A program made the translations under genes and the position numbers. Below, piece after piece: positions 6,950 to 58,089 of a DNA stretch of 64,000 nt. The notes below the pieces were generated by a model that was given only the letters and a program-made list of their open reading frames with translations, made no database searches and had not been told where the DNA came from. The stretch's first letter is position 1. Every line of letters begins with the position of its first letter. The stretch comes from Acetobacteraceae bacterium (GTDB lineage: Bacteria; Pseudomonadota; Alphaproteobacteria; Acetobacterales; Acetobacteraceae), in NCBI GenBank assembly GCA_031291795.1, contig JARLIJ010000272.1, positions 1-64,000 on the forward strand. Direction: 5' to 3'.

Positions 6950-7729
6950 TCATTGGGCGGATTCCGGCACCAACGCGGCCTCGGAGGTGACGGCGGGATC
7001 GATATCGGCCTCGGTCAGCATGCGCCAGGTGCCGCCGACCAGGATCTCGGACGGGCGGAAGCGCGCCTTGTAGGCCATCTTGCGGCTCTCGGGCACCCAG
7101 TAGCCCAGATACACGTACGGCAACCCCAGGCTGCGCGCGCGCTCGACCAGCCACAGGATGGCGTAGGTGCCCAGCGACCGCTTCTCATAGCCCGGGGCGA
7201 AATAGCTGTAGACGGCGGACAGCCCGTCGCCGAGGCGATCGGTCAGGCAGGCGCTGATCATCCGGTCGTCGGGCTCGCGGAACTCCACGATGAACGTCTC
7301 GATCGGCGTGTCTTCCACCATCGCGCGATAGTCGTAGAAACTCATGGTGGCCATGTCGCCTTCGCCGTGGCGGGCCTGCTGGTAGCGCTGGAACAGCTGG
7401 AACTGTTCGGCGGTGGCGCGCGACGGAACCTCGAAGCCTTCCATGGCGGCGTTGGCGCGGGAGATGCGGCGCAGCGTGCGGTCGAGCTGGAAGCGGTCGA
7501 CCGGGATGCGGATCGGCACGCAGGACTGGCAGGACGGGCAGACCGGGGCGTAGGCGATGTTGTGGCTGCGGCGGAAACCGGCGCGCGACAGCCGGTCGTG
7601 CAGGCCGTCGGCATCCGGTCCGGTGATCTCGGTGACGACCTTGCGTTCCGTCCTTCCCGCCACGTACGGGCAGGGCAGGGGGGCCGTCGTGTAGAAGAAT
7701 TGCGGCCGACGCGGGGGTTTATAGGTCAT
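6950..7729 (-). CDS. bpt: Aspartate/glutamate leucyl/arginyl-tRNA-protein transferase
   Basis: QFFYTTAPLPCPYVAGRTERKV, CPSCQSCVPIRI, YVYLGYWV. Confidence 0.92.
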   Translation of the reverse strand: MTYKPPRRPQFFYTTAPLPCPYVAGRTERKVVTEITGPDADGLHDRLSRAGFRRSHNIAYAPVCPSCQSCVPIRIPVDRFQLDRTLRRISRANAAMEGFEVPSRATAEQFQLFQRYQQARHGEGDMATMSFYDYRAMVEDTPIETFIVEFREPDDRMISACLTDRLGDGLSAVYSYFAPGYEKRSLGTYAILWLVERARSLGLPYVYLGYWVPESRKMAYKARFRPSEILVGGTWRMLTEADIDPAVTSEAALVPESAQ

Positions 7730-8232
7730 CGAGCTGGCGTTCCGAACGGCATGTTCCAGCCTGGGGGCGGTTCGGTCAACGCCTCCATCGCATCGACCCG
7801 CACGACGACCAGCCCGCTCACCAGGTCGTGCAGGGTACGCCGGCGCAGCGTGAACAGCGCGACCAGCAGCAAAAGGCCGGAGGTGGCGAGCGTCAGGTAG
7901 AAGGCCAGGGTCGAAACCAGCGCCTGCAGGCCGGTCGGTGGTCCGAGGTCCTCATCGCGCCGCACGGTCAGCCCCAACAGCTGCTGGCCGGGTGTCGCGC
8001 TGCGGCGGCCGAGCAGGGAGAGCATGTGGTAGGCGAAGGGGACGAAGGGGAGGATGGCGAACACCGCGGCGCCGAGGCCGAGGGTGGCCAGCACGAACAG
8101 CGCCAGCACCCACCACAGCATCCACACCAGCATGCCGATCAGGACGGCATCGACGACCCAGGCCACGCAGCGACGCAGCAGCACGCCGCGCGTGAAAAAA
8201 TCCTCGTTCAGGAAGGGGCCGCTTTCGCTCAT
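7726..8232 (-). CDS. RDD family membrane protein
   Basis: RRCVAWVVDAVLIGML..., RSATPGQQLLGLTV. Confidence 0.85.
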   Translation of the reverse strand: MSESGPFLNEDFFTRGVLLRRCVAWVVDAVLIGMLVWMLWWVLALFVLATLGLGAAVFAILPFVPFAYHMLSLLGRRSATPGQQLLGLTVRRDEDLGPPTGLQALVSTLAFYLTLATSGLLLLVALFTLRRRTLHDLVSGLVVVRVDAMEALTEPPPGWNMPFGTPAR

Positions 8233-10541
8233 GGTGCCAGGTGCAGTGTCGCCTCGGTGCGGGCCGCCAGCGGTCCCAGCGACACAGTAGCACCGTCGCG
8301 CCAGCGGACCAGGAAATCTCTGGCATGGCGGCTCAGGATGTTGCCGGACTGGCCGGGGACCATGACGAACAGGCTGTGGTCGAGATCGGCGAGGTCGTAG
8401 ACGCCGCGATAGCCGGGGCCGTGGACGTCGTGCAGGTCGGCGTCGGTGCCGGCGCGATCGACCGTGCTGTCGTCGCCGGGCGCGGCGATCGTCAGGGTGG
8501 TCAGCGGGCCCAGCACCGGCAGCCGGCTGAGGATCGGGTGGCCGAACACCGCCTGGTGGACCGTTCCCCAGCGCCAGGCGGCGGGGTCGGCGCCGTAATC
8601 GTCGCCCAGCGCCTTCACCGTGACGTCGAGCGCGGCTTTCAGCGCCGGCGCGCAGTCGCCGTTGCACCAGTGCGCACCCCCTGGCGTGAGGACGAACGCC
8701 ACGAAGTCCTCGCGCGGGCCGCCCTGGTCGGGGTGGATGCCGTTCTGGATAAGCACCGAACGGTCGAACTGCGCGATCCAGGCGTTGAAGATCAGCGGCT
8801 GCGGCGCATCGGTGGTCATCGCGCCGTCCCAGCCGCGCAGCAACGCCTGGGCGCGGGCGGCCGGCGCGTCCAGGCCGGTGACCGCCAGCAGAGTCGGCAG
8901 GATCTGCTGCGCGAAGGTGCTCTGCACGTCGGCCTGAATATGCGCGAAATCGGCGGCGGTGTGCCGGTCGGAAGCCGCCAGCAGCGTGTGGATCCGCTGC
9001 GCCCGCCAGTCGCCGAACGCGTCGCGGCCGAGGAACGGGTGGTCTTCGGCCGGGGCAATCGGCTCGTTGGTGTTCACCAGCCGGCCGGAGCCGGGGGCCA
9101 CGACATGCGGCAGGTCGGTGCCGGCGACCCAGCCGATCCAGTCATGCGCGCCGTCGGCACCCGGCACCGGTGCGGATCCGTCGCCGGCTTTGCGGATCGG
9201 CACCCGCCCGGTCAGGAACAGCCCGATGCCCTGTCGGTCGGCGACCAGCAGGTTCTGCACCGGCGACGTGATCACCGGTGCGGCGGCGCCGGCCTGCGCC
9301 ACGGTTTCGGCCTGGTTCAGCGCCAGCAGGCCGGCCGCGGCCGTGTCGTCCGGCTGCAGGTTGCCCATCGCAACGGCCAGCAGGGGTTCGTTCGCGCCGA
9401 GCAGGTCGGTGATGACGGGGCCGTGGCGGGTCTCGCGGACGGTGAGGACCTGGTCGGGCTCGCCGCGCACGCGGATGCGTTCCTCGTGGACTGCGAAGGG
9501 GCGCGGGCCGTCCGGGGTCTGGTACTCGCCGGTGCCGACCGGGGTTTCCACGAAGATATCCTGCACGTCGGCGCCGGTGGTGGTGAAGGTCCAGGCGATG
9601 TGGCCGTTATGGCCGATCACCAGGAACGGGATGCCGGGGGCGGTGGCGCCGGCCAGGACGTGGCCGGGCGTTTCGATCCGCGCCAGGTACCAGATGCCGG
9701 GGAAGCCCAAAGCGAGATGCGGGTCGCCGGCCAGCAAGGGCGCGCCGGTCGCGGTGTGGCTGCCGTCGACCGCCCACTCGTTCGATGCGGTCGAGGGCAG
9801 CGTGAACGGCGCCGGGAACGCCGGCAGCATCGCCTGCAGCCGTTCGGCCGCCGCGGCGAAGCGCCACGGCAGCACCAGGGCGGCATCGGGCCGGGGCGGC
9901 GTGCGGCTGGCGGGCCATAATTCGTCGATCATCTGCTGTGGGACATGCCTCTGCAGGCGCAGGCGGGTCAGTTCGGTGCGCCAGTTGGACGACAGCCACA
10001 CGCCCATCGTCTTGCCCCAGAGCAGGCTGTCCACCGGGTCCCAAGGTTCGGGGGCGCCAAGGACCAGGAACTCGGGGGCTGCGAACCGGCCGCGGGCGGC
10101 GATCCAGGCGTTCACGCCCCGCGCATAGGCCTCCAGCATCGCGCGCGCCTCGGGCGGCAGGGTCGCGAGGTCGGCCACCGCGTGCCGGCGCAACCCCAGC
10201 GTGCGCATCATGCGGTCGAGCGGCAGCGTGGCGGGACCGGCGATCTCCGACAGCCGGCCGGAAGCGTTGCGCCGCATCAGCTCCATCTGGAACATGCGGT
10301 CGCGGGCGTGCACGAAGCCGAGCGCGGCGGCGGCGTCGAGGGCGGTGGCGGCATGGATGCGGGGGATGCCGTCCTGGTCGAACCCGATCTCCACCGGGGC
10401 GGACAGGCCGGGGATCTGTGCCGTCTGGTCGTTGCGCGGCAGAGTGAGCCAGAGCGCACCGGCGACCAGGCAGACCATCAGCAGGACGAGGACCCCGACC
10501 CAGGTCAGCACGCGGACAAGCGGTCGCAGGACGGGACGCAT
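8229..10541 (-). CDS. Penicillin acylase family protein
   Basis: FVHARDRMFQMELMRR, STASNEWAVDGSHTATGAPLLAGDPHL. Confidence 0.92.
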   Translation of the reverse strand: MRPVLRPLVRVLTWVGVLVLLMVCLVAGALWLTLPRNDQTAQIPGLSAPVEIGFDQDGIPRIHAATALDAAAALGFVHARDRMFQMELMRRNASGRLSEIAGPATLPLDRMMRTLGLRRHAVADLATLPPEARAMLEAYARGVNAWIAARGRFAAPEFLVLGAPEPWDPVDSLLWGKTMGVWLSSNWRTELTRLRLQRHVPQQMIDELWPASRTPPRPDAALVLPWRFAAAAERLQAMLPAFPAPFTLPSTASNEWAVDGSHTATGAPLLAGDPHLALGFPGIWYLARIETPGHVLAGATAPGIPFLVIGHNGHIAWTFTTTGADVQDIFVETPVGTGEYQTPDGPRPFAVHEERIRVRGEPDQVLTVRETRHGPVITDLLGANEPLLAVAMGNLQPDDTAAAGLLALNQAETVAQAGAAAPVITSPVQNLLVADRQGIGLFLTGRVPIRKAGDGSAPVPGADGAHDWIGWVAGTDLPHVVAPGSGRLVNTNEPIAPAEDHPFLGRDAFGDWRAQRIHTLLAASDRHTAADFAHIQADVQSTFAQQILPTLLAVTGLDAPAARAQALLRGWDGAMTTDAPQPLIFNAWIAQFDRSVLIQNGIHPDQGGPREDFVAFVLTPGGAHWCNGDCAPALKAALDVTVKALGDDYGADPAAWRWGTVHQAVFGHPILSRLPVLGPLTTLTIAAPGDDSTVDRAGTDADLHDVHGPGYRGVYDLADLDHSLFVMVPGQSGNILSRHARDFLVRWRDGATVSLGPLAARTEATLHLAP

Positions 10542-34473: not shown

Positions 34474-34549
<76 letters not shown>

Positions 34550-35124
34550 CAAAATCAAGGACATATAGTCGACTGTGGACTGAGACTCAGCTTCCCGGTG
34601 GCTTTGCGGACCCCATGCGGACCCGCCACCTGGCTACGGAATGCGGGCACTCCATAGCGTCTTGCTCGCATGGACGATCGTTGATCCGCTTGGCTGGCGA
34701 TACGCCCCGGCGCGCGAGCGGTCGGCCTTTAGGCTACGCCTGACCAAGAGGGGGGCGACTCGAGGCCCCCACCCCCAAGTTTTCTGGGTTCGCTCTGCCA
34801 ATGGGTCCCCCCGTTCTCGCCGTGGCCCGATATTCTGTAATTTTGGCTGCAACAGCGTCGGGTAGTCCGCCAAGTACCTCGTGCCCATACGGCAAACCAG
34901 CAATCCATTCGGCGGGCGGCGTCGCCGCATTGAGGCGGCATGCTGCGTTTCTGATGTGTGCCGATGCCCCTATGCTCCCGATGACAGGTCTGGTTGCGCC
35001 ACAGCCACGCAACGGCTGGACTGATGCCGCCCGCTTGCCCTGGCGCCGGACGGAGCGGTTGGTTGTGCGGACCCGCCTGAGTGATACTTTGTTGCCACTT
35101 GGTCCCTCAGAACAGAGGCTCTGA

Positions 35125-35400
35125 ATGCCGTTCATGCCTGGACAGTCTGGCAATCCCGGTGGCCGCCCGAGGGCGCTCAAAGACGTCGAGGAAGCCGCTC
35201 GGGCGCACACTACGGACGCAATCCGCACGCTGGCGTCGATCTGCAAGAGCCGGAAGGCTCCGGATGCTGCCCGGGTTGCCGCGGCCAATGCTCTGCTCGA
35301 TCGGGCCTGGGGTCGACCGAAACAGCGCAATGAACAGCTCGGTCCGGATGGTGTGCCCATCGGCGCGCGTCCACTGGTGATGCTCAAGATCGAGCGTTAG
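35125..35400 (+). CDS. DUF5681-domain (terminase-small-like) protein
   Basis: FMPGQSGNPGGRPRALKDVEEAARAHTTDAIRTLASICKS...LLDRAWGRPKQ. Confidence 0.75.
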   Translation: MPFMPGQSGNPGGRPRALKDVEEAARAHTTDAIRTLASICKSRKAPDAARVAAANALLDRAWGRPKQRNEQLGPDGVPIGARPLVMLKIER

Positions 35401-35424: not shown

Positions 35425-35994
35425 ATGATACCGCGTCGGGCAACGATTATTTTTCTCTTATCTCTGGGAACGATTGCGGGAAGCGTATGGCCTCAGGCCG
35501 CCGCCATTCTGTGGGCCTCAACTCCTGCCCAAGCCCAGAGCGGAGCAACTGATAACGAGTTATATGCAGCCTATTGCATAGGTGTAATGGATGAACGAAT
35601 TGGCACTGGCGCTCCTTCTGCAGATCCTCAGAAGGAGCAGTATGAACGGTCAGTGACCGCCCCTTGGGTCCAATTGCGACAGCGGTTTCAAACCTATCTT
35701 CTTTCAACAGGTGCTATCGCTGATCCGCAGCGTGTGGATGCTGCTCTTGGGCTGACGGCAGCGGCGCGGCGTGGCCACACTGATATGCAACAATGTTTGG
35801 CGGCTCTAACGACAAAATGCAATCGAGACGCGTGCGGCTATCATTATTCAACGCCAAGTGACCCTTTAGGCTTGCGCGGTCCCTCTCCCACTCAAAGCAA
35901 ATGCATATTTGAATATCTGAAGACCTGCCAGGCTCAGCAGCCGTCTTGCGTGAGGGAGTCCCGATGTGATGGGCCAGATACCCTACCTTTTTAG
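35425..35994 (+). CDS. Exported Cys-containing hypothetical protein (island cargo)
   Basis: Signal peptide ending TPAQAQS; several cysteines; more AT-rich than flanking chromosome. Confidence 0.6.
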   Translation: MIPRRATIIFLLSLGTIAGSVWPQAAAILWASTPAQAQSGATDNELYAAYCIGVMDERIGTGAPSADPQKEQYERSVTAPWVQLRQRFQTYLLSTGAIADPQRVDAALGLTAAARRGHTDMQQCLAALTTKCNRDACGYHYSTPSDPLGLRGPSPTQSKCIFEYLKTCQAQQPSCVRESRCDGPDTLPF

Positions 35995-36388
35995 ACGACC
36001 CTCACCGCAAAAGCGTCCAACACGGCGCTTCACATCGTAGCTAGCCTTTCGGCGAAGCGGTCGGAGCCACCGGACGGCCGGGCCATCGACTGCCGTTGCC
36101 CGTGGCCACGATCCTCCAGGCCAATGTCCCGAGCCGCGCGCGAGGCGGAAAGTCCCCTTTCCAACGCTCGTCGCCGGACATAGGTTGTTGCGCAGCCACA
36201 AGTTCGAGCAGGAAGAACTGGTCGGAGCACCAGGCTGGCACTGCCGGGCTGACCCGAACGCGTCCAGGTCGCTTCGGACGGCCCATCCATCGGGATCCCG
36301 TGCCCAGTAGCCAACACCACCGCTCCAGCCCAGCGCGGCGTGCTTCGTGTGCGCACGCGCGCAGGGGGTATGGGGGAACACCGACACC

Positions 36389-36520
36389 AACCACCGCACA
36401 ACCGCCGCGCTCGGAGAAGCAGGGCGCCTGGGCATGCGCCGCCGACTATCGCAGAACCGCCGCAAACAACCACCGCATAAGCAACATCAATGGGTTGCGC
36501 GTAAGAGCCGCAACCGCCGC
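36389..36520. repeat. Iteron-like cluster of five AACC[AG]CCGC 9-mers
   Basis: Copies at 36389, 36400, 36455, 36468 and 36512, all in the same orientation, just beyond the 3' end of the ATPase gene. Confidence 0.65.
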
Positions 36521-36571
36521 AGACCGTGTTCAGATGGCTGCCGGAACGTCGTGGGAACTGAAACAATATGC

Positions 36572-37735
36572 CTACAGTGGGCCACTTCCATCGTCGCTGG
36601 CGTTCCGGACGATCTGCTGGCGGGCGTCGCCCGGCCGGCCATAGCTCGCCAGCCTGATGTGCCTGTCGGCGAAGAGGCGCGACATAGCTCCGTCCAATTC
36701 CCTCGAAGTGTAGCCTTGCGCATCGGGCCTCTTGGCAAACACTTTGGGGGCAAAGTTGCCGGCCCGGTTGGAATTCGACACGCGTATCTGCTGCGCCTCG
36801 CATCGTTCGAGCAGGGCCAGGAACACCGTTTCCACTGTATCTCGTTGGATCGCGCCGGCGATGCCGCCTTCCGATGTGACCGGAGCAAATGCGCCATTGA
36901 CCCATCGCAGCCTGATCGTGTCGCCGATGCCAGCATAGTTGGCCTTGCGTCGTGTCAGGACGCGCTCGGCAGCGTCCTGCTGCTCTGCTTTGCCATCGGC
37001 GCCCCGGTGCGCCAGTGACCACCGTGAACGCACGCTGTTGCTCCACCCGGTGCTACCGCCATCCAGATCGCCGGTCTTTAATCCAGTGCGGGACGGATGG
37101 GCGTTCAGCAGCACCGCGCCGTTGATCTCGATCGCCAATTTGTTCAGCAAGCCGATGAATCTCCGAACTTGGTGGCGATCGTTCTCATTGCCCGCAAAAA
37201 GGTCCGCCGCAGTGTCAAGCACGACAAGGCGCGCACCAAATTCCCTTACCGCCCTCGCAATGGCATCGAAGCGCTTCGTGGCCTGCATTCGCCCGTCGCC
37301 GTTGAATGTAGCCAGCGCGTTGTCTTGCCCCAGGCCGCTGATCCATCGCATGTCGCCCAGGGCACTGAGGTGGATGCCTAGATGGGCGCAAATCCGATCC
37401 TGGCGGCGATGCAACTCGCGTTCGTCATCTTCACAGAACAGGCCGAACGATCGACAGGACATCACAGGATAACCACACCAGCGTGTACCGGTGGCGCATG
37501 CCGTCATCAATTGCTGCGACAGCAGCGTCTTTCCGACACCGCCGTCTCCGTAGGCAGCCGTGGTGCAACCGACAGGCAGCCAGTCCCGTACGATCCATTC
37601 GCGCTCTGGCACCGTTCCGGATGCCAGGTCTGCGGGGTTGATGATGCAGAGAGGTTGATCATCGCTTTGGTTCCCGCGTGCGGCATGCTGCACCGCTTCA
37701 CGCGCCACTACTTCAGCATCAAAGGGTGCCGTCAT
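36572..37735 (-). CDS. RepA-like AAA ATPase / replicative helicase-type protein
   Basis: Walker A YGDGGVGKTLLSQQL; CEDDERELHRRQDRI; VLDTAADLFAGNENDRHQVRRFIGLLNKLA. Confidence 0.8.
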   Translation of the reverse strand: MTAPFDAEVVAREAVQHAARGNQSDDQPLCIINPADLASGTVPEREWIVRDWLPVGCTTAAYGDGGVGKTLLSQQLMTACATGTRWCGYPVMSCRSFGLFCEDDERELHRRQDRICAHLGIHLSALGDMRWISGLGQDNALATFNGDGRMQATKRFDAIARAVREFGARLVVLDTAADLFAGNENDRHQVRRFIGLLNKLAIEINGAVLLNAHPSRTGLKTGDLDGGSTGWSNSVRSRWSLAHRGADGKAEQQDAAERVLTRRKANYAGIGDTIRLRWVNGAFAPVTSEGGIAGAIQRDTVETVFLALLERCEAQQIRVSNSNRAGNFAPKVFAKRPDAQGYTSRELDGAMSRLFADRHIRLASYGRPGDARQQIVRNASDDGSGPL

Positions 37736-38559
37736 CGCCTTGCCCCCGCTGCAAGTGCGCTGCTCAGAGTCCGCACTACCTCACGTCGTTCCAGTCCAGC
37801 AACTTGGCTCGCGTGGGCCAGCGCCTCGGCGATTTCGGGCGGCGTCAACAACCCATCGGCGATGAAACGGGACAGGCTCCACGCGGCTCGGTTTAACGTG
37901 TCGTTGCGTTGACCATCTGGCGCAGTGGCGACCTGTTCGACGGCCCTTCGCAAGGCGCCGATGGCATAGAAACGGCCAGGCTGCCCAGTGTTTGCCACGG
38001 GATGCGGGGCCGGCAGCGGTGACTTCGGCAGTGGCGCGACAAGTTGCAGCAGCCAGTCGGGTGCCGGCGGCGCTGCGATTTCCCAGGGTGGCGTGATCCA
38101 CCGATACCGCATGCGAGTCCGGTGATGGATGGATGGTGGGATTGTTACGGTCAGCCGGCCCCGTCGAGGATCAATGCCAGGACATGGTGTACCTGTGGCG
38201 CCAGCGATCGGCTCGCCGCGATGCAGGAAGAACAGGGCGCACCCTCCGCCGCCGGAGCGTGTGGCAGGCCGCGGCGGGATGGGACCGTGCACCGCTACCA
38301 GGGCGGCGAGTGCCTTGATTCCGTCCGCTCCATGGTGCGGTCCCGGTGCATCGACATCCAGCGCCCAGATACTGGAGCCGGCCATCACGACGCGCCAGTT
38401 GCAGTCGGGAAACTCAGCGCTCCACCGGGCTAGACAATCCAGGTCGCACGTCGCGAGATCAGCCGCCCGCCTGATGCAAGATGCTCGGCTGAAACGTGAT
38501 GCTGGGTGGAGTCGCCAGCCGAGCAATGCAAGTCGTTCGACGTCGGGGTGCAGGGTCAT
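37732..38559 (-). CDS. Bifunctional DNA primase/polymerase (prim-pol) N-terminal-type protein
   Basis: NWRVVMAGSSIWALDVDAPG...RSGGGGCALFF...GIDPRRGRLTVTIPPSIH; overlaps ATPase start. Confidence 0.78.
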   Translation of the reverse strand: MTLHPDVERLALLGWRLHPASRFSRASCIRRAADLATCDLDCLARWSAEFPDCNWRVVMAGSSIWALDVDAPGPHHGADGIKALAALVAVHGPIPPRPATRSGGGGCALFFLHRGEPIAGATGTPCPGIDPRRGRLTVTIPPSIHHRTRMRYRWITPPWEIAAPPAPDWLLQLVAPLPKSPLPAPHPVANTGQPGRFYAIGALRRAVEQVATAPDGQRNDTLNRAAWSLSRFIADGLLTPPEIAEALAHASQVAGLERREVVRTLSSALAAGARR

Positions 38560-38639
38560 ATCTGGCCCCACAGCGACAAGCCCGGGCCGGCGAACTCGGC
38601 CAGCGCGGCATCACCCGATCCGTACAACACCATCTTCAT
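38556..38639 (-). CDS. 27-aa ORF, translationally coupled
   Basis: MKMVLYGSGDAALAEFAGPGLSLWGQI*; ATGA overlaps at both ends. Confidence 0.45.
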   Translation of the reverse strand: MKMVLYGSGDAALAEFAGPGLSLWGQI

Positions 38640-38952: not shown

Positions 38953-39180
38953 TTATGAGTGGCTGTTGCTTGTGCTTGCCCACTCGGCTGCTCGGCTTGT
39001 GTGCGTGCGTGCCGCGGCCCACTGCATCGCCTGCGCCAGTGGGTAAGCCAGACGACGCTCACTCAGTCGAACGAACGCGGGTCCCTCTCCGGTTTCGCGC
39101 CAGCGTTGCAAGGTGCGCCGAGAGATTCTGAATCGCTCGGCGAATTCTTTCTCGGTCAGAAAGTGATCTGATTCGGGCAT
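38953..39180 (-). CDS. AlpA/MerR-like helix-turn-helix protein (putative excisionase/regulator)
   Basis: FLTEKEFAERFRISRRTLQRWRETGEGPAFVRLSERRLAYPLAQAMQW. Confidence 0.75.
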   Translation of the reverse strand: MPESDHFLTEKEFAERFRISRRTLQRWRETGEGPAFVRLSERRLAYPLAQAMQWAAARTHTSRAAEWASTSNSHS

Positions 39181-39524
39181 TTCGTACCTCCTGCAGTGGC
39201 ACGAGCACACACGGCTCAACGCAACAACACGGCTCGCGCGCGCGTCACGGTCGGTCGATGGGATTGGTGGCCACTGCTCGGGCCGAGAAGCGGATCGCGC
39301 TGCTTGGTGTTCCGCTGCGTGCTGCCGGTGGCCGCTGCTGGGGCGAACCGATAGCGCGGCGTAATCGGTATCGCATCGGCCGCTAGCAAGTCAAGGCTCC
39401 TCTACGCCGCCTGTGGCGAAAGCCCTGAGTTCATCTGCCGATCACGAGCAACCGGCGTGGCGCCTGCAAACACGGGCCAGCACGAAGGAGGTCGGCGTCA
39501 AACACCCGCAAGATGGGGGCACCG

Positions 39525-40757
39525 TTACGCCCGGCGCAGCGCCACGATGTTGCCGGCCTCCAATCCACCTTCCGCACAGCGCAAGACATGAGTCGCCCAG
39601 GCTTGCAATGCCGATGCCCGCTCCGCCGCGAAATCGTGACGTTGATACACGCGCGCCGCACCCCGGAGCTTGCTCGGCTGATGCGCCAACAGCTTATCTG
39701 CCACGATGGAATCGATGCCCATTGCCGCCAATGCCGAAACACCCGTGCGACGAATGTCATGCAGGCGCCAGTCTGTGACGCTGCTGGCCCGATCGAGCGC
39801 AGCCTTCGCTTTGGTGAAGCCAGAAACGGCGGTGCGGCCTGTGGTCGAGAATAGCAGATCCTGCCCCTCAATACGGGGGATCGCTGCCAACGCCTCTTTC
39901 GCGGCGGCAGGCAGCGCAATGACATGCGGCAGCCCCCGTTTCATTCGGGCACTCGGGATGGTCCAACTCGATAGGTCGGGCGAAAGTTCGGACCACCGCA
40001 TTCCTGCGACCTCCTCGCGGCGTGCCAGGGTCAGCAGCAGCAGGCGGAACAGCGGCCCCCAGGGATAGGACATGCTGGCTGCCGCGCCCCACACTCGGCC
40101 AAGTTCTTCGTCCGTCAGCGCCCGCTCCCGCTCAACCGCACCGGCCGGTATGGGGAGGTTCATGAACGGGTTGCCAGGCACTTTCCCGCGCTTCTCCGCC
40201 CAGTGGAAGCAAGCCCGCGCATAGGCCATGGTACGGCCCGCCATTGCCGCCTTTCCAGCCTTGGCAAGCGCGTCCAGCGTGTTCACCGCCTCTGCGCGAC
40301 TCAGGCGTGCGGCGGGCCGACCCAACAGATGGTCGAAGGCATGATGCAGCGCTCGCTGTGCTTCGCGGGCGTAGCGCGGACGGCGGTGCGTCAGATGCAG
40401 GCCAGCCCATTCGTCGATCAAGGCGCGGAATGTCAGGGCCGTCTCGGCACGGTCGCGCTCGGCGTCCCGGCGGCGCTGCTCGCGCTCAGCACGCGGATCG
40501 ATGCCCTTGGCCACCTGGCCTAAGCGCACGCGTGCTGCCTCGCGGGCTTGGTCGATGGTGAGGCTGCCCCAAACGCCCAACGGCTCGCGCACCTTCCGGC
40601 GGGTCGCTGTGTCCGTCCACTGGGCGATGAACGTGCGGGTCCCTTTGGTGGTCAATCGTACCCCAAGGCCCGGGCATGCCGTGTCGAACAGCAGGCGATC
40701 TTTCTGGCCAGGCTCCAACGCCAACCCGTGCAGTAGCTTGTCGGTCAGCTTCGGCAT
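39525..40757 (-). CDS. int: Tyrosine recombinase/integrase
   Basis: LLLLTLARREEVAGMRWSEL, WRLHDIRRTGVSALAAMGI, LLAHQPSKLRGAARVYQRHDF (R..HxxR..Y); adjacent to attR. Confidence 0.93.
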   Translation of the reverse strand: MPKLTDKLLHGLALEPGQKDRLLFDTACPGLGVRLTTKGTRTFIAQWTDTATRRKVREPLGVWGSLTIDQAREAARVRLGQVAKGIDPRAEREQRRRDAERDRAETALTFRALIDEWAGLHLTHRRPRYAREAQRALHHAFDHLLGRPAARLSRAEAVNTLDALAKAGKAAMAGRTMAYARACFHWAEKRGKVPGNPFMNLPIPAGAVERERALTDEELGRVWGAAASMSYPWGPLFRLLLLTLARREEVAGMRWSELSPDLSSWTIPSARMKRGLPHVIALPAAAKEALAAIPRIEGQDLLFSTTGRTAVSGFTKAKAALDRASSVTDWRLHDIRRTGVSALAAMGIDSIVADKLLAHQPSKLRGAARVYQRHDFAAERASALQAWATHVLRCAEGGLEAGNIVALRRA

Positions 40758-40913
40758 TGCTCGCACCCGCCTGTCTGCGGACCTGCTGCGGACCCGAGCC
40801 CTGGGTCCGCGTGGCGATCCATGGCGGCATGCTAATCAGCGGGTCCGGCAGTATGCAAGCAAAATAGCGGTATATTGCGAAGCGTGGCGATTGATGGCGG
40901 GTCCGCATCGCTT

Positions 40914-40960
40914 ATTCGTAATCAGTAGGTCCGGAGTTCGACCCTCCGCGTCGGCACCAG
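40914..40960. repeat. attR
   Basis: Identical 47-bp copy of attL; lacks the tRNA 5' half. Confidence 0.92.
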
Positions 40961-57514: not shown

Positions 57515-57644
57515 GCGAGCCTCCGGGGCTGGATTGCGGAACAGCCGGCGACAGGCCGTGACACAGTCGCCCCAAGGCAAACTGCTGGGAACCGATTGGC
57601 CATCATCATCGTCTCCTGCCGCCGGAGCACCCCGCTCGGCGGCG

Positions 57645-57875
57645 TTGGTCAGGCGACGATGGCAGGTCTCCTGGCTCGCGGGTCAGAGGCGGCCGGCAGG
57701 TGCGGGCCGGCTTCCTCTGGCACTGGCCCGGTCTTCCCGAACCCGCAGGTTCAGTGACCCGCCCCGGAGGGGGCGAACGGGCCAGCGGCGCACCGCTGAC
57801 AGTTGCGGGGGCAGCCGCCGACTGGCTCCCGGACCGGAGGTCCAGCCGGAGCGCACGGCGTTCCCTATTCACCCG
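57645..57875 (-). promoter_or_regulatory. Cobalamin riboswitch upstream of metE
   Basis: Minus strand contains GCTGCCCCCGCAACTGT and GAGCCAGGAGACCTGCC, the hallmark B12-box segments, in correct order. Confidence 0.93.
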
Positions 57876-58089
57876 CTCGCGCGGGACCATCGACACATAA
57901 GTATAGGTTTATCTCTTGTGTCGACGCAAGCGTGGTTGAGTGGGCACGGCGGGTGGTCGTTTGGGCGTCATGGCTCGTCCGTGAGCGTGCGGGGGCCAGC
58001 CGGTGCGCCAATCGTGCGGTTGCGCGGGGGCCTGCAAGAAAGCTGAACCGCCAAGTCGCCACGACGCCAAGACGCCAAGGGGCTGGTGT

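Follow-up and report, generated by a model that had tools for sequence, protein, structure and literature searches.

A putative iteron-type replication origin 3' of the RepA-type ATPase gene of a 6.4-kb integrative element in Acetobacteraceae

Introduction

According to one account, the origin of a PICI directly follows the rep gene on its 3' side and has two sets of iterons with an AT-rich region between them (PMC6092414). HE-PICIs carry int, alpA and pri with the origin downstream of pri, and the PICI primase/rep proteins are a family with Pox_D5/D5_N domains, as stated in the accessible part of another (PMC10111431). In plasmid RSF1010, RepC serves the iterons, RepA is the helicase, and RepB' acts at the ssi hairpins (PMC4234260, PMC4538821). 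The pRN1 origin is an essential stem-loop on the 3' side of a gene that combines Prim-Pol, SF3 and winged-helix parts (PMC4234260). Plasmid pSC101 requires IHF sites, and R6K is helped by them (PMC4980987).

The stretch of DNA analysed here, referred to as the window, comprises 64,000 nucleotides of an Acetobacteraceae bacterium (GenBank assembly GCA_031291795.1, contig JARLIJ010000272.1, positions 1 to 64,000 of the forward strand). We propose that a 6.4-kb integrative element probably has its replication origin (ori) at positions 36333-36521. An earlier note on this DNA had suggested an autonomous origin at this place, with PICIs as a precedent. The precedent agrees with the published description, in which two sets of iterons form part of an origin directly behind rep (PMC6092414), and the suggested origin is supported by the recurrence of the array 3' of the ATPase gene, by phased IHF-consensus boxes, by a near-invariant C-rich box (C-box) and by a hairpin.

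Results

The island and its genes

The repeat array sits in a 6.4-kb integrated island with 50-bp tRNA-Thr direct repeats at both ends, the left of which overlaps the 3' part of tRNA-Thr(CGT) (34474-34548; ARAGORN and Rfam). The leftward genes encode, in order, an integrase, an HTH_17 protein, a Prim-Pol and an ATPase; the DUF5681 gene and a 189-aa ORF are read rightward.

34500..34549, + strand: att repeat, left island end; 50-bp direct repeat, 98% identical to 40911-40960
35125..35400, + strand: DUF5681 cargo gene (PF18932, E 4.8e-8)
35425..35994, + strand: 189-aa ORF, convergent towards the putative origin; no family match (Pfam)
36572..37735, - strand: AAA_25 RepA-type ATPase/helicase (PF13481, E 1.4e-29)
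37732..38571, - strand: Prim-Pol primase-polymerase (PF09250, E 5.9e-19)
38953..39219, - strand: HTH_17 excisionase/AlpA-like protein (PF12728, E 1e-7; phrog_66, excisionase and regulator, E 1.3e-10)
39525..40766, - strand: tyrosine integrase (PF13356, PF22022, PF00589)
40911..40960, + strand: att repeat, right island end; 50-bp direct repeat

Among the island genes searched against Pfam and PHROG, no packaging or phage-interference genes (terS, capsid morphogenesis) were found. A D5-type rep/primase was also not detected, the window proteins giving no D5 or P4 alpha family match in Pfam, and the island contained no separate RepC-like gene (ORFs and Pfam).

Near both island ends (34605-34626 and 40776-40797), TGCGGACC direct repeats lie 11 bp apart, accompanied by a 14-nt perfect inverted copy at 40895-40908. 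They are likely integrase arm-type sites. Such a role was ruled out for the array described below, since the arm sites look like these separate repeats, and it is also contradicted by the relatives, whose arrays follow the ATPase gene. Two loci in genomes of the same genus, L199 (G010:C69, 3418-4653) and L200 (G017:C104, 3041-4267), have integrases that are 61-62% identical and adjoin a 19-bp sequence matching the tRNA-Thr att region exactly. They carry an HTH homolog and no AAA_25 ATPase, and appear to be sister islands whose replication modules have been swapped. A 6S RNA (1628-1785, - strand) and a cobalamin riboswitch (57644-57906, - strand), both identified with Rfam, lie in the host part of the window.

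The iteron array

The earlier note had reported five same-strand copies of AACC[AG]CCGC past the 3' end of the ATPase gene. All five were recovered (36389, 36400, 36455, 36468 and 36512, all on the + strand). The ATPase stop and the convergent 189-aa ORF are 577 bp apart, and the array falls within this gap. On the strand of the ATPase gene, the iteron unit reads TGCGG[CT]GGTT. The five full iterons were assigned by motif search and comparison with relatives; the region is composed as follows.

36512..36521, - strand: iteron 1, TGCGGCGGTT
36503..36512, - strand: degenerate (sixth) iteron, TGCGGCTCTT; relatives have a full copy at the same position
36485..36497, - strand: IHF-consensus box, CAACCCATTGATG; 12/13 to WATCAANNNNTTR on the other strand
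36468..36477, - strand: iteron 2, TGCGGTGGTT
36455..36464, - strand: iteron 3, TGCGGCGGTT
36400..36409, - strand: iteron 4, CGCGGCGGTT
36389..36398, - strand: iteron 5, TGCGGTGGTT
36363..36377, - strand: C-box, TCCCCCATACCCCCT; sole exact copy in the window's genome
36333..36362, - strand: GC-rich hairpin after the C-box; z -1.4, no more stable than shuffles

AACC[AG]CCGC occurs nine times in the window against 2.87 expected, a count of nine or more being reached in 0 of 100 shuffles, and with five copies in 132 bp it forms the densest cluster in the window when all 9-mers with a single ambiguous position are compared. Simulation of 60 third-order Markov windows gave maximum 9-mer counts of 3 (57 runs), 4 (one run) or 0 (two runs), and never 5. 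The perfect pair AACCRCCGC-NN-AACCRCCGC (0 mismatches) has its single occurrence in the whole genome in this array. The earlier note had proposed a genome-wide count of the motif and would have given up the origin if the motif were no commoner than background. The 9-mer proved to be common, and rarer than its reversed control (164+148 versus 232+206); single copies are therefore uninformative, and that test would reject the origin wrongly because only the clustering is special. The signal is the clustering of the 9-mer, not its single copies.

Direct repeats of one orientation, clustered beside replication genes at a conserved position, are what characterises an iteron-type origin, and the array shows these features. 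The AT content of the gap between iteron groups that holds the IHF box was 47%, compared with 36% in the surrounding 8 kb, which does not make it a clear AT-rich block. No strongly AT-rich melting region was evident at the array, the gaps with IHF boxes being merely relatively AT-rich.

The ATPase and its C-terminal domain

The ATPase core matched RSF1010 RepA in a profile comparison (1g8y, E 4.8e-17) and its fold matched 1nlf in Foldseek (E 6.4e-15), so that its relationship to RepA-type hexameric helicases is one of sequence and fold. Approximately 100 extra C-terminal residues (about 295-380) extend beyond the RSF1010 RepA core. Modelled separately, this C-terminus consisted of three helices and a two-stranded wing, and its Foldseek list comprised mostly winged-helix proteins (BLM RQC, PadR, RTP, DnaD), with weak matches (E values of 0.04 or higher; highest probability 0.99). 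The domain is predicted to be winged-helix-like. Since the island has no separate RepC-like protein, we consider it the best candidate for iteron recognition.

Repeat arrays in relatives of the ATPase

Relatives of the ATPase were gathered from whole genomes, viral contigs, phages and plasmids. For 28 loci, the best short direct-repeat family within 350 bp at or past the ATPase stop was scored against all other windows of that locus. These 350 bp held the strongest cluster in 13 of the 28 loci, with about 0.4 expected by chance (the window, L012, L013, L016, L019, L040, L041, L044, L046, L048, L049, L051 and L054). The cluster at the ATPase end ranked high, though not top, in four more (L017, L020, L043 and L057), and no array was detectable in L015, L042, L045, L047, L050, L052, L055/L056 and L059. 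Locus L042 retained the C-box despite this.

The iteron motif was TGCGGYGGTT in the window, L012 and L019, TGCGGAGGTT in L044, TGCATCCGGT in L040, TGCTCTGGGT in L020, GTCGAAGGT in L041 and CTACGGACA in L017; further loci had motifs of their own. The iterons of close relatives share TGC-NNNN-GGT with a variable core. Judged from these comparisons, the repeat sequence varies by lineage while the layout stays. The ATPase is the constant partner of this layout across the relatives. In L040, a Toprim_3/DUF7146 primase replaces the Prim-Pol and the layout is unchanged, which indicates that the layout follows the helicase and not the primase. In the viral contig L053, the array, the IHF boxes and the C-box form a group 4.7 kb upstream of the ATPase stop, which suggests that they move as one cis unit and are not tied to the gene end. 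A plasmid search at the DNA level with the origin sequence gave no match.

Two of the relatives showed further features. In L017 (Azospirillum brasilense NZ_CP059450.1, 1111047-1124078), a megaplasmid ATPase is accompanied by two perfect IHF-consensus boxes and an array of iterons, in a region for which the collection's gene table lists no gene. L020 (G011:C50) has a tandem array with a 69-bp period (GTCCCCTGTC units) at 7823-8315, approximately 2 kb past the origin of the related element.

IHF-consensus boxes

Between the iteron groups stands a box, typically TAAGTCATTGATWT, the reverse complement of which matches WATCAANNNNTTR, which we take to be the IHF consensus. In 22 origin regions there were 11 perfect IHF-consensus matches, whereas the remainder of the loci would predict 0.09 (p 4e-20). 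The boxes are on the same strand as the array, and the distance from the start of the preceding iteron to the start of the box was near-constant, mostly about 16 bp, in 13 of 14 cases. The host genome contains an IHF alpha gene. Conservation extends beyond the IHF consensus, so another or an additional function of the box is possible.

The C-box and the hairpin

Shortly past the last iteron stands the C-box, followed by a GC-rich inverted repeat. The C-box TCCCCCATACCCCCT was exact in the window, L020, L044 and L053, had one to three mismatches in L012, L040, L042, L048 and L049, and was visible as a variant in L019; it is common to loci with ATPase identities as low as approximately 24-30%.

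When viral contigs were scanned with CCCCCATACCCCCT alone, at least 120 contigs matched, most of them probably by chance. Among the matches listed, 23 contigs had an ATPase relative, and 13 of these 23 carried the C-box on the ATPase strand, 53-316 bp past the stop and typically preceded by the contig's own repeat array. After close relatives were merged, the C-box was located 3' of the ATPase gene (within 320 bp) in 10 of 18 independent ATPase lineages among the matches listed (p 3e-13). Four contigs (L097, L099, L126 and L155; apparently one related group) carried the C-box on the other strand, about 1.05 kb beyond the ATPase gene, and were left out of the origin count. Six exact C-box matches were found in five of 384 other alphaproteobacterial genomes, none with an AAA_25 relative in the surrounding 3 kb; the C-box 14-mer alone is thus not diagnostic in chromosomes.

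The sequence of the hairpin was not conserved among the relatives. It was much more stable than shuffles, with z of -3 or lower (-3 to -5 in many), in L012, L019, L020, L040, L042, L044, L053, L060, L064, L082 and L129, and not so in the window, L049, L077, L091, L108, L115 and L128.

One 13.5-kb viral stretch (L068, IMGVR_UViG_3300043436_005814) contained six CCCCCATACCCCCT copies and no detected AAA_25 gene. In the related viral contigs L062, L095, L139 and L158, the C-box is directly followed by a GC-rich inverted repeat and no AAA_25 relative was detected; another replicase perhaps uses the same C-box there.

Discussion

Comparison with described systems

With PICI/SaPI, as portrayed in the available parts of the sources, the island shares the order integrase, alpA-like gene, primase, helicase and ori, an ori immediately 3' of the helicase gene with grouped iterons, and integration at a host site with direct repeats. 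It differs in having a Prim-Pol and a RecA-fold AAA_25 ATPase instead of Pox_D5/D5_N proteins, and in its IHF-phased iterons and its C-box with hairpin, which those parts of the PICI/SaPI sources do not mention. We do not class the island as a PICI because the helicase family differs and no packaging gene was recognised.

The island resembles IncQ/RSF1010 in its RepA-type helicase (in the island, by sequence and fold), its separate AEP-type primase, and the succession of iterons and then GC-rich and hairpin elements, as in the IncQ1 oriV (L180). The iterons of L180 are different, being tandem repeats of 22-bp period, and this oriV lacks the C-box (best match with three mismatches). IncQ plasmids have RepC, whereas the island has none and iteron binding is proposed for the extra C-terminal domain of the ATPase. 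The pRN1 system (orf904) likewise combines a Prim-Pol, a helicase and a C-terminal winged helix with an origin 3' of the replication gene and a stem-loop, which is conserved in pRN1; it has an SF3 helicase and no iterons, in contrast to the RecA-fold ATPase, iterons and IHF boxes of the island. Satellite phage P4 also unites primase, helicase and iteron recognition in one replication system, but it has a single protein, alpha, whose primase is of the Toprim type (PMC4234260), and the window proteins had no alpha/D5-type match.

Wolbachia phage WO (KX522565, L016) encodes a related AAA_25 (RepA-like) ATPase with 48% identity over the core, and 9-bp direct repeats are clustered at the 3' end of this gene; it differs in having another C-terminal domain, and no C-box was found at the locus. 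The repeats, AAGNTGGCA, at 7181-7381 of KX522565.1, are a candidate WO origin. In the literature searched, which included few subscription journals, this type of origin was undescribed and the C-box did not occur in a replication context.

Proposed mechanism and alternative explanations

The comparative evidence strongly favours a replication origin, and the composite plan of repeats, IHF boxes, C-box and hairpin appears to be common to a family of RepA-type elements and phages. From this we infer replication itself, the identity of the iteron-binding protein, IHF binding and the roles of the C-box and hairpin, as follows. The integrase and the HTH protein would excise the element as a circle, which the C-terminal winged-helix domains of the ATPase would recognise by binding the TGC-NNNN-GGT iterons. 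IHF would bend the DNA between the iteron groups and so bring the bound subunits together. The ATPase would then open the DNA and load as a hexameric helicase beside the C-box and hairpin, where the primase (Prim-Pol in the window) would prime, followed by the host polymerase.

Of the alternatives, the one that survives best is that the repeats are not a start site but an operator or silencer, through which the ATPase or the HTH protein exerts autoregulation or copy-number/incompatibility control; its model is the P4 crs, which aids the origin from a distance. Iteron arrays of known plasmids double as control sites, and L053 demonstrates that the array is separable from the ATPase gene. We nevertheless consider this explanation unlikely: the array is located 3' in the operon, at its end, a promoter scan found no promoter-like site in 35950-36700, a second conserved candidate origin was not seen in the island, and the C-box, hairpin and phased IHF boxes suit an initiation site better.

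Somewhat less probable again is that the hairpin, perhaps together with the C-box, is the terminator of the leftward Int-HTH-Prim-Pol-ATPase operon and unrelated to the iterons. The hairpin does directly follow the last gene, and the L040 stem has a T run behind it, but such a run is absent in most relatives, and the terminator scan found none at the hairpin of the window. A terminator also cannot account for a near-invariant 15-bp C-box that is kept with the array when the latter is displaced by 4.7 kb (L053). Chance or low-complexity CCG-rich sequence can practically be dismissed, for although single AACCRCCGC copies are no commoner genome-wide than the reversed pattern, the cluster was never equalled in simulation, and relatives whose motifs are unrelated show the same position and layout.

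Implications of a probable replication origin

Origins are rarely annotated in such poorly known alphaproteobacterial islands and phages, and a C-box and phased IHF boxes with an array 3' of an AAA_25 gene would provide a searchable origin signature for them. We found no earlier description, in the literature searched, of an apparently conserved origin plan with changing repeat sequence. Because the iteron core varies while the plan is fixed, iteron specificity can be compared directly with the C-terminal domain of the helicase, and the finding bears on how RepA-type helicases may be loaded without a separate RepC. More tentatively, and in our judgement doubtfully, the C-box and hairpin might be a sequence-specific entry or priming signal for a broad part of the RepA-type (AAA_25) helicase lineage, whichever primase or iteron accompanies it. 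If true, this would make the iterons a swappable identity tag (incompatibility group) ahead of a fixed loading platform, and would define a class of helicase self-loading origins new to the literature.
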